Below are positions 5,611 to 19,517 of a stretch of 64,000 nucleotides of DNA, piece by piece (position 1 is the first letter of the stretch; each line of letters starts with the position of its first letter). Below the pieces are notes generated by a model that was given only the letters and a program-made list of their open reading frames with translations, did no database searches and was not told the DNA's origin. The position numbers and the translations under genes are program-made. Origin of the DNA: Bdellovibrionota bacterium (GTDB lineage: Bacteria; Bdellovibrionota; UBA1018; CAUJDS01); contig CAUJDS010000031.1 in assembly GCA_963169695.1 (NCBI GenBank), positions 1-64,000 on the forward strand. Reading direction: 5' to 3'.

Positions 5611-5669
5611 CTCCTTACCGACGCAGCTTGCTTACGAACGGGGATGGCTATTTTCTGTTAAAAAAAATA

Positions 5670-6611
5670 TTAGTTTAGGTACACGCTCTCCAGTGATTGA
5701 GAGACTAAAGACCGATCTCGATCGAGCACAAAGTGCAGCGCATCCTTTTCGCCGCGAAACCAAGTGCGTTGGCGTTTGACGAGTTGGCGAGTAGCTAGCG
5801 CAATCTCCGATTCCAGGCCAAGCAATCCTTCAGCAACTTTTCGACCTTCGGGCTTTTTTCCTGCGAGGTAGTCGAGGCATTGTCGGTACCCTACGGCTTG
5901 AAGCGATCTCGCGTCGGGATAGGTCTTGTGCAAATTTTGCACTTCTTCAAGGAAGCCACTATCAAGCATCTTCTTGGTCCGAAGTGAGATGCGTTGGTTT
6001 AATTCATTGGCGTCGCGGTCTAGGATCAGTGTCGGAAATTCGATGCGGGGAGAAGTGGGCCTTTCGCTTTCGAGTTGTGAAGGCTTTTTTCCATGAAAGA
6101 GCAAGATTTCGCAGGAACGAATCAGACGATAGCGGTCATTCTTTTCTACCTTACCGGCATACTCAGGGTCCCCAGCTTGGAGTTGCTGATACAACGCTTC
6201 ATTGGATTGAAGCTCGAGTTGTTTGCGCTTTTCGGGATCTGGTTTTGCAACGTCCCATAGACCATACCGCAAAGCCTTCAAGTAAAAGCCTGTTCCGCCA
6301 ACAATAAGTGCGCGGTTGCCGCGAGAATGTACTTCGTCGAGAACCTTCAATACGTCCTGGTAGAAATCTCCAGCAGAGTAAGGCTCATCAGGACTTCGGA
6401 CATCCAAGAGGTGATGTCGCACTTCACTTTGTTCTTGGGGTGTTGGTTTGGCAGATCCGAGATCCATTCCACGATAGACCTGGATGCTGTCGGCATTGAC
6501 AATCTCGATCGTCGGGTGTTTGCGGCAAAAGCTGAGGGCAAATTCTGACTTTCCACTAGCTGTGGTCCCGGTAAGAATAGGAACGGCTTTGGCTATCACC
6601 TCTGAAACCAT
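5670..6611 (-). CDS. miaA: tRNA dimethylallyltransferase MiaA
   Basis: MiaA transfers a dimethylallyl group from DMAPP to A37 of tRNAs reading UNN codons. The 313-residue length is normal. The P-loop GTTASGKS sits at residues 15-22, followed by VNADSIQVYRGMDLGSAKP (the D-S-x-Q-x-Y substrate motif), the HHLLD motif, and IVGGTGFYLKAL. The C-terminal region has AVGYRQCLDYL and the typical RQLVKRQRTWFRG. The start at 6611 overlaps the mutL stop by 16 bases, consistent with translational coupling; the mutL-miaA order is widely conserved in bacteria. The protein is cytoplasmic. Confidence 0.96.
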   Translation of the reverse strand: MVSEVIAKAVPILTGTTASGKSEFALSFCRKHPTIEIVNADSIQVYRGMDLGSAKPTPQEQSEVRHHLLDVRSPDEPYSAGDFYQDVLKVLDEVHSRGNRALIVGGTGFYLKALRYGLWDVAKPDPEKRKQLELQSNEALYQQLQAGDPEYAGKVEKNDRYRLIRSCEILLFHGKKPSQLESERPTSPRIEFPTLILDRDANELNQRISLRTKKMLDSGFLEEVQNLHKTYPDARSLQAVGYRQCLDYLAGKKPEGRKVAEGLLGLESEIALATRQLVKRQRTWFRGEKDALHFVLDRDRSLVSQSLESVYLN

Positions 6612-13892: not shown

Positions 13893-14456
13893 ATGTCACA
13901 CGTATTTTATTCTCTCCACGATCAAGCCTTGAAACTTTCAAGACGGTACCTTGCTTGTGAGAAAGAACTCTTAGAAATCCTTGTAAAGATTGAATCCAAG
14001 AAAGTCTATCTTCAGCAGGGCTATTCAAGCCTAACGGAGTATTCGCAAAAGGCACTTGGGCTCTCTCGAGATGTCAGCTGGAACCTCGTCACCATTGTTC
14101 ATAAATCCAAAGCCGTACCAGAGCTAAAGCACGCGGTACAAATGGGAGTGCTTCCTCTGAGTAAAGCCAGGCAGATCGCTCCCCATTTGACGAAAGAGAA
14201 TTCTCAGAAGTTTATCGCACTTGCTCAGGCCATGCCAAGAGAGAAGCTCCAAGAGGCGCTCGCCAAAGTAGTCACTGCCCAGGCACATCAGTGCACCTAT
14301 CAAGACCCTAGGACCCAGCTTCGATGTGACAAAGAAAGGTTCTTGCACATCCATCACAAGCTTCCAGTAGCAATGGGTGGAACCAATGCTCTAGAGAATC
14401 TCACCTTGCTTTGCAGCTCCCATCATCGTCTGGAACATTATCGAAGTAGCGGGTAG
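13893..14456 (+). CDS. HNH endonuclease, short form
   Basis: The 187-residue protein has a helical N-terminus (residues about 1-125: a Y-L-Q-Q-G-Y-S-S-L-T-E-Y segment and an LSRDVSWNLV segment) of the kind found in the multi-copy HNH proteins of Bdellovibrio-like genomes. The C-terminal HNH nuclease has zinc-type cysteines (C-x10-C around 134-145), HIHHKLPVAMGGTN, ENLTLLCSSHHRLEH. It is shorter than many relatives, which carry a spacer between the two parts, so an internal deletion is possible. The start has AAAGGAA 7 bases upstream. It is the only gene between the flanking inverted repeats, and its orientation opposes the upstream cluster. Confidence 0.85.
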   Translation: MSHVFYSLHDQALKLSRRYLACEKELLEILVKIESKKVYLQQGYSSLTEYSQKALGLSRDVSWNLVTIVHKSKAVPELKHAVQMGVLPLSKARQIAPHLTKENSQKFIALAQAMPREKLQEALAKVVTAQAHQCTYQDPRTQLRCDKERFLHIHHKLPVAMGGTNALENLTLLCSSHHRLEHYRSSG

Positions 14457-14582: not shown

Positions 14583-15710
14583 GTGTCATTACTGCGGAGT
14601 CCCCAGACACTTTTTTCATTTTTCAAAAAAAGCTCTGGAAAGAAGGCGGGCAATCGCATATCTGTGATTGTTCAAAAAATAAGGGTAAGACGTTTGAATC
14701 GCTGGATTTTATTTTTACACATGGCTTGGTTGGGGTTCTGTCCATTGGCTGGAGCATCCGAGCAGTCGATCCTTGGCTATTGCTTTCGTGCATTCCTATC
14801 GGACGTCAAAGGGCTCATTGTGCCGAAGGATGTAGCCATGTATCAGGAAGCAATCGGTGACGGCTCCCACACCGTAGGGCTCTATGGAAGGCTCGGTTGG
14901 CTTGGGTGGCGCTACCGCTGGGAAATTTCGCAAAGTAACCCGCTGTTTCCCAGTGCGCCGGATTCATTTTTCAAGCAATTGGGTTGGGAGCGTAAGCATC
15001 AGCGCAGAATGGTGATGGACCTGGCCCGGGCTGCACCCGTCGTTTATGGCCTGAAAGTCCCTCTGCGGGGAAATTGGGACAGCTACGAGAATCACCTTTC
15101 ACCGAAGATGCTAATGGAAATTTTGCAGCGGGGCGAGATTCCTTTTCCGACCACACGTAATCCCGATTTAGGAGTGATGGGATATTCGCTATGGGACTAC
15201 TTTATGTGGGTCTATCCTGCTTGGTTTCTTCTACCTCCGGAGGCATTGAGCTGGATGAGGCAAAGAGGAGAGTTGCTTCAACGACTCCATAAAGTCAGCG
15301 ATAGCGGCAAATTGCCAAGGAAGTTGAGCCTCCTTCTAGTTCAGTGGAATCGCCAATTGTACGAGGCATGGAGGAAGGATTTGGTTTCTCTGACGGCGGC
15401 TCTTTATGAGACAGATTTTGAGAATTTCTGGTCTTTGTGGAACCAGGCAGTGGGGAATATTGCGAATTTTCCGGATTTGAAGAATCGTTCGTCGCTAGTG
15501 CAGGCTCTTTTGATAAAGGGCCGAGCCTCACATTCCTTGATATTCCAGCTAATGAGTGAACTCGGTGCAACAGAATTGGATGAGGCGCCAGAGCCTTCTC
15601 GATCATTTGCTAAGGGCCTTTGGGAATCCTGGTACGGCAAAGGAGTGGTCCGTGTCAGAAGCCGAAACGGAATGCAACGTCTTGCCGGTGGAGCTGAAAG
15701 CGCCAATTAG
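14583..15710 (+). CDS. exported protein of unknown function (up to 375 aa)
   Basis: I do not recognise the family. The longest frame opens with a GTG at 14583, directly after the mobile-element end, but its first ~30 residues look non-genuine. A hydrophobic signal-like stretch (NRWILFLHMAWLGFCPLAGAS) is better served by the GTG at 14664 or the TTG at 14694, the latter with AAGGGTAAG just upstream. The mature part is helical and rich in Trp, Leu and Arg (RGNWDSYENHLSPKMLMEIL; DFENFWSLWNQAVGNI). It ends 48 bases before the RAP-domain gene on the same strand, and the two are probably cotranscribed. No catalytic motif is visible. Confidence 0.65.
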   Translation: MSLLRSPQTLFSFFKKSSGKKAGNRISVIVQKIRVRRLNRWILFLHMAWLGFCPLAGASEQSILGYCFRAFLSDVKGLIVPKDVAMYQEAIGDGSHTVGLYGRLGWLGWRYRWEISQSNPLFPSAPDSFFKQLGWERKHQRRMVMDLARAAPVVYGLKVPLRGNWDSYENHLSPKMLMEILQRGEIPFPTTRNPDLGVMGYSLWDYFMWVYPAWFLLPPEALSWMRQRGELLQRLHKVSDSGKLPRKLSLLLVQWNRQLYEAWRKDLVSLTAALYETDFENFWSLWNQAVGNIANFPDLKNRSSLVQALLIKGRASHSLIFQLMSELGATELDEAPEPSRSFAKGLWESWYGKGVVRVRSRNGMQRLAGGAESAN

Positions 15711-15758: not shown

Positions 15759-17981
15759 ATGGATATTGAAAAGTCGCGGTTTTCTGTGGGGTTTTGGGCG
15801 CTGATTCTGTTGGTGCAGGCAAATGCAGCGTACTGTCAGGACGGAGATATTTGCCGTCCTATCTGGAATGCTCAAAAGAGCCCTTGGTCCCAGCGGCTAG
15901 CATCCCTACGTTACCCGCAAGAGGTCTTACGACTTTATCTCCAAGCTGAATCAGACCCCGAACTTACTGTTAGAGATCGCATTTCTTTTCTGAGAGCTTA
16001 TGCAGTAAAATTGAGAACAGAAAAACCGGACCTGATTCGAGAAGAACTTCGGCCCGTACTTCCGGCACTCCTTTCTGCTATCGAAGGTCATTTGTCAGAA
16101 TTGGATGTATCGGGCCTAGCCGCCTTTGTTTTGAGTATTGGTGGGACAGACCTTCGGGTGGAATCCTTACTCCAAAAGGTAGGTGAGCAACTCGAACATC
16201 GTCTTCGCGCGGGCGAAGCATCCAAGGGACATCATATCGTGGATGTGCTTTGGGGATTTTCTCGATTGGCCTATGTTGCGCCTGCGAGTTTGCTATCTGC
16301 GTTGGCAGCTAGGCTCAGCGTGAAGGATTTAAATCCCGAGCAGCGCATTCGATTGGGATGGAGCTTGGTCTATCAAGGGGCACATCTGGTGGAGCCAGAT
16401 GCGATTGCGAAGTGGTGGAGGAGTTCCAATATCCCTTATAGAGCACTTAGTCCGGAATCCATTCGTCAACTTGCCGAAATGAGGGGAATGATTGCTGCAA
16501 GTGGCGCTACCGATTTTCTCGGAGGAAGGCGCGCTAATCAGTACGGACGCCTTAGTCCTCATAATCCAATCAAAAAAACAATGGATTCTTTGACTCGGTA
16601 CTTAGGAGTGAAGTTAGTCACTCGAGAATTTTCTGGAATGGATTTTCCCATATGGCAGATAGAGCTGGATGGCCAACCTAGTCTTTTTGTGGATCCTGGG
16701 AGGAAAGGTGCTGACCTTTTCAAGATGCGTATTGTCGCGTACTTGGGCGGTGAATTGCTCGCCATTCCAGCGGACTTGCAGGACTTCGACAAGCGGGGTT
16801 TTTTTGCCGAGGCGAAGGGAGCAATTGAAAGCAAATTGGCTGGACTAGCAGGAAATGTGAAACAAGCCAATGGAAGTAAAGTTCCATCAGCTGTGTTTCG
16901 AGCCATTGGGGAGCTACCAAGGCGTTCGAACCTTTCCATTTGGGATTCACTTCTTGATGCCGCTCGTGGAACGGATCACGATCATCCTTATTACTACATG
17001 GAAATACTACGTCGTCTTTACTTAGAAGAGGCGCGAGATAAGCCCTCGCAGGAATTGCTGGGGCATCGGGCATTTTTTAAGAAGGTCTTAGAACGTATCG
17101 AAAGCCAAATGCCTTTTCTTACGGGAGATCAGGTTGTCACTCTTGGTCAAGTTGCACTTTATTTGAGGTACCATGATCGACCATTCCTACAAAAGCTTGC
17201 CGATCAGGCGACCCATCTTTTGGGCGGTAGCTCAATGGTGCATTCCAATGCTTCCTTCCTTCTTAATGTTTTTTCAGCGTTTCAGTTTCGAGATGATTTG
17301 TATTTTGAAGCATTGATGAAGAGCTTCAATCTTAAAATGAGAGAGCTTCAGGTTCTGAGTGATTCAGAAAAAATGAGCCTAATTAATTCCAAAGTGTTTT
17401 TGGGACTCGGGCAATCAGCCGTTGTTTTAGGTTTTGATAAGACGCATCCAGCATTCTTTGAGACTTGGTCCGGACTTCTGAGAATGGTGGAAGGGAGTGC
17501 ACCAAATCCTGCGTTCGACAACCTTCGATTTCATGTTCAGTTGAGGTTAGGTGCGACGCTGGGAGAGCAATACGGCCCTTCCATTGAGTTAAAGAGGGAA
17601 GTGGTTGGTAGAAACGATCCGGTTAGTCATTCTCCCTTCGAGACAACGGTCGAGTCTTGGATTCGTGCAAATGGTTGGCAAGTAGAAGTCGCACCCAAGA
17701 GAAATGTGATGGGCTATCAAATGGATTTTGTCTTGAATGCGGGTGGTAGACTGATTGACCTGGAGGTCGATGGTGACCAGCACTATATGGATGGCCCCAG
17801 TGGTAGGCAGTTAAGAGGCAAGGACGTTTTGCGAGATGAACAGTTGGGAGTGGAGCATTACTCTGTGATTCGCTTTGATTTTGGCAAGACTGCGGATGGC
17901 ATGGATGCACATGGCTTTCGGAAATGGATGAATCAAGAGCTCGATAAACGCGGTCTGTCGGAGCTCTATACTGTAAGGTGA
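15759..17981 (+). CDS. exported FASTK/OPR-like helical-repeat protein with C-terminal RAP/PD-(D/E)XK-like domain
   Basis: The 740-residue protein starts with a signal peptide (residues 1 to about 24-26, hydrophobic GFWALILLVQANAA). Residues about 112-210 and again about 450-570 show repeating helix pairs with the W/L-A-hydrophobic pattern typical of octotricopeptide/FASTK repeats, e.g. HHIVDVLWGFSRLAYVAPAS and LLSALAARL. The last ~90 residues hold a QMDFVLNAGG segment, then RLIDLEVDGDQHY, then RGKDVLRDEQ and YSVIRFDF, which matches RAP domains and the wider Vsr/DUF559 endonuclease-like fold, with D656, E669 and D671 in the positions of a PD-(D/E)XK core. Eukaryotic FASTK/OPR-RAP proteins bind or process organelle RNA; bacterial ones are rare and mostly from intracellular bacteria. 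The combination with export is striking. It converges on trhO, 20 bases apart. Confidence 0.7.
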   Translation: MDIEKSRFSVGFWALILLVQANAAYCQDGDICRPIWNAQKSPWSQRLASLRYPQEVLRLYLQAESDPELTVRDRISFLRAYAVKLRTEKPDLIREELRPVLPALLSAIEGHLSELDVSGLAAFVLSIGGTDLRVESLLQKVGEQLEHRLRAGEASKGHHIVDVLWGFSRLAYVAPASLLSALAARLSVKDLNPEQRIRLGWSLVYQGAHLVEPDAIAKWWRSSNIPYRALSPESIRQLAEMRGMIAASGATDFLGGRRANQYGRLSPHNPIKKTMDSLTRYLGVKLVTREFSGMDFPIWQIELDGQPSLFVDPGRKGADLFKMRIVAYLGGELLAIPADLQDFDKRGFFAEAKGAIESKLAGLAGNVKQANGSKVPSAVFRAIGELPRRSNLSIWDSLLDAARGTDHDHPYYYMEILRRLYLEEARDKPSQELLGHRAFFKKVLERIESQMPFLTGDQVVTLGQVALYLRYHDRPFLQKLADQATHLLGGSSMVHSNASFLLNVFSAFQFRDDLYFEALMKSFNLKMRELQVLSDSEKMSLINSKVFLGLGQSAVVLGFDKTHPAFFETWSGLLRMVEGSAPNPAFDNLRFHVQLRLGATLGEQYGPSIELKREVVGRNDPVSHSPFETTVESWIRANGWQVEVAPKRNVMGYQMDFVLNAGGRLIDLEVDGDQHYMDGPSGRQLRGKDVLRDEQLGVEHYSVIRFDFGKTADGMDAHGFRKWMNQELDKRGLSELYTVR

Positions 17982-18001: not shown

Positions 18002-18871
18002 CTAAGAAACTTGTCGCCTACAGCAATGCGGGCATGGGTGCTTGGTGTCGTATCCTGACTTCTTCTGATCCTCGATAATGGTTGGATTTCCGCAGTGAAG
18101 GCAATGCACTTTTTCTGCCGGAGCCAGGTTTGGGGTAACTGCAACCCGTCGATCGAATACAAAGCAATCTCCTCGCCAATGATCGCCTCCGACTTTTTCG
18201 AAGTAGTTGAGGATTCCACCGTCGAGTTGATAGACTTGATTGAAGCCTTTCTTTATCAGCATAGGTGAGGCTTTTTCGCATCGAATGCCGCCGGTGCAAA
18301 ACATCACGACGGGCTTGTCCTTCCAGCTTGAATCAATGGCAGCTACCTTTGTGTCAAACCCTCTAAAAGTCGAAAGGTCCAAATGTTCGGCCTTTTCGAA
18401 AGTGCCAATCGTAAATTCATAGTCGTTGCGTGTATCTAATATCAACATCTCTTGACCTGCTTCGTACCAACGTTTGAAGTCCACAGGCGCAATCGTGGGC
18501 CCCGTATAGTCGTGAGGCCGAATGGAGGTGTCCTCGGTGGGGACCAGTTGCTTTTTAACTCGTACAAGCATGCGATGATAAATGCGATCCTTGGACCAGC
18601 TTTCTTTAAAGATAAGGTCCGCTATCCCAAGGTCTTCGCGCAGGAAGGCCTGAAGCTGCCGAACATTCTCGGGTTCGCCAGAGATAAAGGCATTGATCCC
18701 TTCAGGGCAGAGGACAATGGTCCCCATCAGGTCTAATTCTTTGGCTTTGGCCAGGTAGATGACCTTCATAGCGGGGAGGTCCCGATGGAGATCAAAAAAC
18801 CGATAGCAGGCAAAGTTGAGTATCGACGGTTCCGAAAGCATGCGGGGCACTATAGCCAAAATAAAGGCCAT
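18002..18871 (-). CDS. trhO: tRNA uridine-34 hydroxylase TrhO (rhodanese family)
   Basis: TrhO (YceA) makes 5-hydroxyuridine at U34 of certain tRNAs from prephenate-independent oxygen chemistry. The 289-residue protein has the N-terminal acylphosphatase-like segment (CPEGINAFISGE), then a rhodanese domain with LDTRNDYEFTIGTF and the active-site loop CTGGIRCEKAS with Cys192. The C-terminal tail carries four cysteines in two CxxC-like pairs (CLHCGN and CPHC), as in many homologues. An internal ATG at 18841 (MLSEPSILNF) would remove 10 residues and is a good alternative, as neither start has a clear ribosome site. The upstream region is shared head-to-head with the toxin-antitoxin-like pair. Confidence 0.92.
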   Translation of the reverse strand: MAFILAIVPRMLSEPSILNFACYRFFDLHRDLPAMKVIYLAKAKELDLMGTIVLCPEGINAFISGEPENVRQLQAFLREDLGIADLIFKESWSKDRIYHRMLVRVKKQLVPTEDTSIRPHDYTGPTIAPVDFKRWYEAGQEMLILDTRNDYEFTIGTFEKAEHLDLSTFRGFDTKVAAIDSSWKDKPVVMFCTGGIRCEKASPMLIKKGFNQVYQLDGGILNYFEKVGGDHWRGDCFVFDRRVAVTPNLAPAEKVHCLHCGNPTIIEDQKKSGYDTKHPCPHCCRRQVS

Positions 18872-18904
18872 TGTCTAATCTCGCCAAAATCAGCCGCTTT
18901 GGGC

Positions 18905-18953
18905 TGACTATTTGTGACTATGTGTTGACTATGTGTGAATGTCAGCCTATGCT
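18905..18953 (+). promoter_or_regulatory. promoter with overlapping 10-bp direct repeats for the DUF4258/DUF2283 pair
   Basis: TGACTATTTG, TGACTATGTG and TTGACTATGTG follow one another from 18905 to 18935. The third contains a -35 box TTGACT (18925-18930), and 17 bases later is TATGCT (18948-18953) as a -10. Repeats over a -35 box are typical operators for antitoxin HTH domains, and the second gene downstream encodes such an HTH. If this promoter is right, transcription starts near 18960, so translation may begin at the GTG at 18961 rather than the ATG at 18949. Confidence 0.5.
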
Positions 18954-19206
18954 TAGAAGAGTGAAAGTCAGATTTCTTCCGCACGCCGTCATTCGAATGC
19001 AGGACCGCAAAATCAGTGTCGCTGAGGTTGAGCAAATTCTGACAAGCCCCGATGGGAAGATCAGGCAATCGAGGGATAAGGCTATTTTTTATAGGCACTT
19101 GAGTCGTCGAAAGGACAACCTGATTGCTGCAGTGGTGATTGAAAAGCTCCCAGATGATTGGATTGAAGTATTGACAGTGCTCGTGAATTTTGAGGTGCGA
19201 AAATGA
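18949..19206 (+). CDS. DUF4258-family small protein, putative toxin
   Basis: The protein is about 85 residues from the ATG at 18949; an ATG at 18931 or a GTG at 18961 are alternatives. It has VRFLPHAVIRMQDRKISVAE followed by V-E-Q-I-L, then KAIFYRHLSRRKDNLIAAVV, the pattern of DUF4258 proteins (H-A-x-x-R-M then a beta-rich core), which are related to RelE/BrnT-like small toxins. The stop overlaps the next start in an ATGA, so the pair is translationally coupled. A DUF4258 gene followed by DUF2283 is a recurrent bacterial arrangement usually interpreted as toxin-antitoxin; activity is inferred. Confidence 0.72.
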   Translation: MLRRVKVRFLPHAVIRMQDRKISVAEVEQILTSPDGKIRQSRDKAIFYRHLSRRKDNLIAAVVIEKLPDDWIEVLTVLVNFEVRK

Positions 19207-19517
19207 AAATCGTTCATAGACCGGATGTGGATTTTATTTCCATCGATTTTAAGGATGGAATTGAGGCCAAGTCTTACTTTGAGAATGGCATTGTTGTCCG
19301 TCTTGATCGGCGAGGGAATGTCTTGGGCCTGGATATCACGGACTCTTCGGAATTTTTTTCTGGAGAAGAAGAGATCGACTTGAAGCAGGCGTGTGTCCTT
19401 CTTAAAGTGTCCGAGTCGACCCTCCGTCGGCGTATCAAACAAGGTCTGATTCCTTATCGTAAGAAGGGAAATAAGGACTATCGCTTTAAGCGCAAGGATC
19501 TTCTGAAGCTCGGGTGA
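19203..19517 (+). CDS. DUF2283 protein fused to an excisionase-type HTH, putative antitoxin
   Basis: The 104-residue protein has two parts. Residues 1-55 match DUF2283 (MKIVHRPDVDFISIDFKDG, then GIVVRLDRRGNVLGLDI). Residues about 62-104 are a MerR/excisionase-like helix-turn-helix: LKQACVLLKVSESTLRRRIK, GLIPYRK, YRFKRKDLLKLG. Most DUF2283 proteins consist only of the first part, so the fused DNA-binding tail gives it the means to act as an autorepressor. The direct repeats ahead of the upstream gene are the natural candidate operator. It overlaps the DUF4258 gene by 4 bases. Confidence 0.78.
   Translation: MKIVHRPDVDFISIDFKDGIEAKSYFENGIVVRLDRRGNVLGLDITDSSEFFSGEEEIDLKQACVLLKVSESTLRRRIKQGLIPYRKKGNKDYRFKRKDLLKLG

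Follow-up and report, generated by a model that had tools for sequence, protein, structure and literature searches.

Bacterial OPR/RAP-like proteins were known before from Orientia and among the type III effectors of Ralstonia (PMC7729196), and a 2025 review states that fastk genes are absent from bacteria and archaea (PMC12687428). What, then, might a protein that reads like an exported member of this class be doing in a Bdellovibrionota bacterium? The question is raised by the open reading frame (ORF) at 15759–17981 (+ strand) of a 64,000-nucleotide stretch of DNA (hereafter the window; GenBank assembly GCA_963169695.1, contig CAUJDS010000031.1, our C31), which belongs to a genome of 2.79 Mb in 82 contigs. 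A preliminary description, made from the sequence, had proposed a signal peptide, OPR/FASTK-type helical repeats and a C-terminal RAP/PD-(D/E)XK-like module, with action on RNA or DNA outside the producing cell. The ORF has the coordinates first noted, starts with ATG, encodes 740 amino acids (aa) followed by a stop, and is a real gene, judging from a near-full-length diverged paralog in its own genome. Our best explanation is that its product, P0001, is an exported FASTK/OPR-RAP-class protein that would bind and probably cut nucleic acid once beyond the producer's own cytoplasm, possibly in prey, a reading we regard as evenly poised between right and wrong.

Relatives and family assignment

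Taken by itself, P0001 would leave the family claim a hint. Profile searches returned weak, sub-threshold Pfam matches to MTES_1575 (E=0.0032) and DUF559 (0.033) at the C-terminus and to FAST_1 (0.027, residues 161–205), but no match to RAP itself (PF08373) at E<1; NCBIfam gave no match either. The FAST_1-like segment aligns with the relative P0005 (43% over 47 aa), and a hidden Markov model (HMM) of the repeat, built from relatives and compared with 100 shuffles, finds one detectable repeat at about residues 160–207 (16236–16379, 6.6 bits, exceeding all 100 shuffles). This repeat and the helices predicted by AlphaFold are what P0001 shows of possible OPR features; its own repeats are degenerate.

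It is the paralog and the other relatives, as read from their sequences, that support the assignment. A search with P0001 alone found P0002, a paralog of 757 aa in the same genome that matches over nearly its full length (E=1.1e-29), and P0003, the single match among 97 genomes (9.1e-5). The homology is more than chance because both proteins match Pfam RAP (8.5e-4 and 1e-4) independently of the window sequence. A Pfam RAP scan of 369 Bdellovibrionota genomes, in which matched ORFs were then read, yielded P0004 (genome G098), P0005–P0007 (G056; a contig end truncates P0007) and P0008 (G337), and a RAP profile built from the members, which is circular in the high scores it gives its own seeds, added the divergent P0009 (G262). 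The family thus comprises nine proteins in 6 of the 369 genomes, eight of them complete and one a fragment; its members are sporadic, very diverged and spread over several families of the phylum, and none was found in a group of genus rank, rich in complete genomes, that we take to be Bdellovibrio itself. P0002 straddles the RAP cut-off of 24.2 bits (24.4 in the genome scan, 19.7 in hmmscan), and P0004 (41.4 bits, E=1.4e-10) and P0005 (27.1 bits) exceed it. FAST_1 (PF06743) matches P0006 (4.3e-29), P0007 (1.6e-17) and P0005 (6.6e-6), the first two over the cut-off, and FAST_2 has no match at E<1 in P0001–P0008. P0006 also carries DUF559 (4.1e-10) and eight 38-aa OPR-like repeats by the repeat HMM, and among solved structures its sequence finds trypanosome RESC6 (2.9e-8) and Chlamydomonas mL115 (1.4e-4).

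These relatives bear on one alternative, in which P0001 is an ordinary secreted DUF559/Vsr-type nuclease joined to an unrelated helical domain and not kin to FASTK/OPR. Its top Pfam matches are indeed nuclease families, MTES_1575 and DUF559, and endonucleases of the DUF559/MTES_1575/Vsr type (3hrl; I-Bth0305I, 3r3p) share with it a PD-(D/E)XK core and a D...ExDGxxH motif. Those among the matches that were read are small proteins or helicase fusions that, unlike P0001, have neither solenoid nor signal peptide. However, P0006 combines its strong FAST_1 match with 38-aa repeats, the FAST_1-like segment of P0001 finds its counterpart in P0005, and the fold search described below matches OPR/RAP proteins across the combined architecture. 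We consider this alternative extremely improbable.

The family does appear rare in bacteria, as the preliminary description had held. FAST_1 found nothing in 739 genomes from five other bacterial groups (229, 128, 129, 128 and 125), in searches without an internal positive control, though with the profile that did detect the members in G056. A scan of a wider genome-contig collection with a single protein as query, together with a viral scan, returned nothing, as did plasmid searches; the RAP profile had some matches among viral sequences. A scan across the whole collection relied on a single short motif, which diverged members would escape. Several candidates were set aside on reading. ORFs of about 1000–1150 aa in the Bdellovibrio genus have weak RAP matches, which in those read lie near the N-terminus of another conserved exported protein and were judged to be chance; large ORFs of G057, G136 and G298 carry DUF559-type ends on big cytoplasmic proteins that are not exported; matches in Geomonas, Ruminococcus, Hymenobacter and others are DUF559 proteins that stand alone or are fused to helicases, and they lack a signal peptide; and, among FAST_1 matches outside G056, that in G272 lies in a methyltransferase-like ORF and most others are short or broken frames. 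Our literature search found no paper containing both "RAP domain" and "Bdellovibrio".

The relatives in G056 also show some recent history. On locus L037, P0006 (179–1963) adjoins P0007 (2064–3164), which is 81% identical and has nearly identical 38-aa repeats, and a further partial copy lies at the end of L036 (1–617); read from sequence, this is a recent amplification.

Predicted tandem architecture

AlphaFold2 models built on an eight-sequence alignment have a mean predicted local distance difference test score (pLDDT) of 70 for P0001 and 69 for P0002; since the alignments are shallow and FAST/RAP relatives are among them, the models cannot count as independent of the homology claim. In P0001 they predict two helical solenoids, at about residues 42–254 (15882–16520, pLDDT mostly 70–88) and 377–616 (16887–17606). 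When both models were compared by Foldseek with the PDB, organellar RAP/OPR proteins came out at the top (trypanosome RESC6/8, Toxoplasma mitoribosome proteins, mL115 and human FASTKD4). Template modelling (TM) scores reach 0.57 on the target for the Toxoplasma proteins; on the whole query they are about 0.2–0.35, low values that are to be expected if the match covers one half of the query. For FASTKD4 (9gek), E was 7e-4 with P0001 and 2e-4 with P0002, at probability 1.00 and a whole-query TM score of 0.3.

The first and second solenoids of P0001 match each other by hhalign (P=4e-5), a value that is suggestive only, with two sequences per profile and helical proteins resembling one another. 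Between the solenoids of P0002, residues 289–365 are predicted as a helix, three strands, a helix, a strand and a helix, the same order of elements as in its C-terminal RAP domain. The corresponding stretch of P0001 is modelled largely at pLDDT <50; a putative first RAP domain is placed there at residues 270–345 (16566–16793) from the paralog's topology, and the inter-solenoid sequence matches RAP weakly but in register (P=0.0098). It is therefore likely that P0001 and P0002 are tandem duplications of the form solenoid-RAP-solenoid-RAP with a degenerate first RAP, an arrangement newly recognised here: the preliminary description had the family and the export signal right, but missed the second unit and the paralog.

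The C-terminal domain (residues 620–733, 17616–17957), which is assigned to the RAP/DUF559 type from weak Pfam matches, the profile of the members, AlphaFold and Foldseek, has a predicted PD-(D/E)XK-like topology and the motif D...ExDG..H. D656, E669 and D671 stand where they had been claimed, with H675 in addition (D656...E669-x-D671-G672...H675, 17724–17783), and D656 and D671-G672 are invariant in the member alignments. With the Pfam matches of the relatives, the models and the fold searches in agreement, the architecture of P0001 as a FASTK/OPR-RAP-type protein is well supported.

Several known systems can be set beside it. The FAST1-FAST2-RAP module of human FASTKD4 likewise places a Vsr-like RAP after a helical FAST region, but it is mitochondrial, a single unit and apparently without nuclease activity (PMC11879112), and it has the FAST2 region that P0001–P0008 do not match. 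RESC6, named as a RAP-domain protein, RESC8 and the RAP-type proteins of the Toxoplasma mitoribosome are helical solenoids and the best fold matches; unlike P0001, they are organellar and built into RNA-editing or ribosome complexes. The OPR-RAP proteins of green algae and Paulinella have 38-aa repeats followed by RAP (PMC7729196), as in P0006 with its eight repeats, but they are organelle-targeted. The Orientia RAP protein and Ralstonia RipS/SKWP have OPR-like repeats and a similar architecture (PMC7729196), a likeness drawn from description; these are eukaryote-associated bacteria, and the Ralstonia route is type III.

Export signal and candidate function

The N-terminus of P0001, MDIEKSRFSVGFWALILLVQANA/AYCQDGDIC, has basic residues, a hydrophobic stretch (Kyte-Doolittle value 2.4 over 11 aa) and an AXA-type site, with no transmembrane stretch thereafter. 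We read the signal peptide as residues 1–23 (15759–15827), with cleavage at ANA/A (VQA is possible too), leaving a mature N-terminus (residues 24–41, 15828–15881) that holds the only two cysteines, C26 and C32. We applied a fixed rule asking for a basic residue, a hydrophobic stretch and an AXA-type site. It is passed by each of the eight complete members, which have no transmembrane stretch further on, and by 104 of 306 sampled genes of the same genome when up to eight starts were tried per gene. Eight of eight would arise by chance with a probability of about 2e-4 (~1 in 5,000) assuming independent draws, which the members are not fully; all 14 ORFs read from other phyla fail the rule. From this sequence pattern we infer that P0001 is exported, in line with the preliminary description.

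The opposite case is that the hydrophobic stretch is an uncleaved anchor, or the start mis-called, and that P0001 regulates the producer's own RNA in the manner of organellar OPR proteins, a case that draws on the organellar kin acting on RNA of their own compartment. Against it, signal-peptide-like N-termini with no other transmembrane stretch recur in all eight complete members, strongly diverged as these are, and the hydrophobic stretch lies downstream of the ATG, where any start keeping the conserved length includes it. We think it very unlikely.

A feature of the mature N-terminus deserves separate mention. In every member a cysteine follows closely on the signal peptide, and a survey of the own-genome sample (the window, L040, L043 and L134–L153) together with P0001–P0009 found a cysteine at a similar place in many exported-like proteins, often in a CxxxF/W/L-like setting ("GDICRPIW", "DACQGVF", "GDNCVGVF", "YCFRAFL"). 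In proteins that lack an obvious lipobox, cysteine is enriched about 3-fold over the 20 residues that follow the hydrophobic stretch; part of this enrichment may come from unrecognised lipoproteins.

If P0001 is exported as an RNA- or DNA-directed protein, the following sequence of events can be envisioned. The signal peptide would carry it across the inner membrane, and the mature protein would consist of two helical-solenoid-plus-RAP units; the solenoids would hold single-stranded nucleic acid, with RNA as the likeliest ligand, the first RAP would have become a degenerate scaffold, and the C-terminal RAP/DUF559-type PD-(D/E)XK unit would keep the acidic residues for cutting. Its most likely role would be to bind and cleave RNA (or DNA) encountered beyond the producer's cytoplasm. 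Since the phylum is largely predatory, the simplest target would be prey nucleic acid, a guess that is speculative. Bdellovibrio does secrete nucleases with signal peptides, and its DNases Bd0934 and Bd3507 are released during predation (PMC7925074). The likeness to P0001 lies in export and nuclease character. We know of no kinship of these two enzymes to RAP/OPR.

How far cleavage can be credited is a separate matter. FASTKD5 was reported in 2025 to be an endoribonuclease (PMC12687428) and FASTKD4, a solved FASTK module, is apparently without nuclease activity (PMC11879112), so that activity cannot be read from the fold; nucleic-acid binding and cleavage by P0001 are what we infer by analogy. 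Several points weigh against the proposal as a whole. P0001 itself reaches no Pfam cut-off; the inactivity of FASTKD4 means that a RAP fold is no proof of catalysis; the motif H is replaced by K in P0002, and E by Q in P0008 and P0009; mature P0001 has a net charge near zero and an acidic RAP part (pI 5.5), a profile unusual for a general RNA-binding protein; on its own, a Sec signal leads to the producer's periplasm and not to the prey cytoplasm; and predation by this particular organism is an assumption.

Some of these points would suit a non-cutting scaffold better, that is, an exported FASTK/OPR-RAP protein with a dead-nuclease RAP that attaches to RNA or to a partner protein in the periplasm, in the envelope or outside. 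FASTKD4 provides the precedent (PMC11879112), the catalytic residues are not conserved in every member, the first RAP is degenerate, and most of the organellar proteins matched by fold have structural or scaffolding roles in ribosomes and editing complexes. Set against this, D656 and D671 are invariant in all aligned members, P0001 retains E669 and H675, and a periplasmic RNA scaffold has no obvious use. We hold the scaffold to be possible, if rather unlikely.

The organellar matches also invite the idea of an effector that enters eukaryotic host cells and interferes with organelle RNA. The same role may be supposed for the OPR/RAP-like proteins of Orientia and the RipS effectors of Ralstonia, and bacterial proteins of similar architecture have so far come from eukaryote-associated bacteria (PMC7729196). 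But the signal is of the Sec type and not one for injection, the relatives span several families of Bdellovibrionota, and no tie of the genome to a eukaryotic host was seen, no systematic search having been made; we would be surprised to find it correct. The reading we prefer remains that of an exported protein that may bind and cut nucleic acid. In a bolder form, which we think decidedly unlikely as a whole, the exported, fast-diverging OPR/FASTK-RAP proteins of Bdellovibrionota, some tandemly duplicated and some with freshly amplified repeats of 38 aa, would be endoribonucleases that work outside the cell, where they recognise and cut particular RNAs in bacterial prey.

Genomic setting and significance

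P0001 sits among mainly ordinary chromosomal genes, such as those for MutL, IPP transferase and a rhodanese-type protein, and reading of the window translations places both ribonucleotide reductase subunits nearby. Promoter and terminator scans at P0001 did no better than shuffles. Defence models gave no match for P0001; the sole match for P0006 was a weak one to a restriction enzyme, within its nuclease domain. Ending 48 bp before the P0001 ORF is a gene of 375 aa with a GTG start (14583–15710) that has no significant Pfam match; as it has no homolog at the other member loci fetched, it was ruled out as a conserved partner. Read from the annotated start, it does not pass the signal rule, but a hydrophobic stretch and "YCFRAFL" suggest possible export from an internal start. 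Two genes upstream of P0001 lies a 187-aa protein with an HNH endonuclease domain (13893–14456; PF01844, 1e-7), and 18871–19206 (DUF4258) and 19203–19517 (DUF2283/HTH_17) adjoin and overlap, having the appearance of a toxin-antitoxin-type pair. The paralog P0002 (L040, 6571–8844) lies 64 bp downstream of a gene (5664–6506) whose product, as read, resembles an exported N-acetylmuramoyl-L-alanine amidase.

Strong matches to FAST_1 and RAP in bacterial proteins that also carry export signals stand against the statement that such genes are absent from bacteria, and they bear on the origin of the organellar OPR/FASTK-RAP proteins. The exported relatives, some of them shorter than 400 aa, offer material on which RNA cutting by RAP domains can be tested. 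If the bolder form of the proposal is true, the family would be a secreted, modular RNA-targeting enzyme, a bacterial counterpart of organellar RNA-control proteins, and if prey RNA is the target, it would represent a novel type of predation enzyme.
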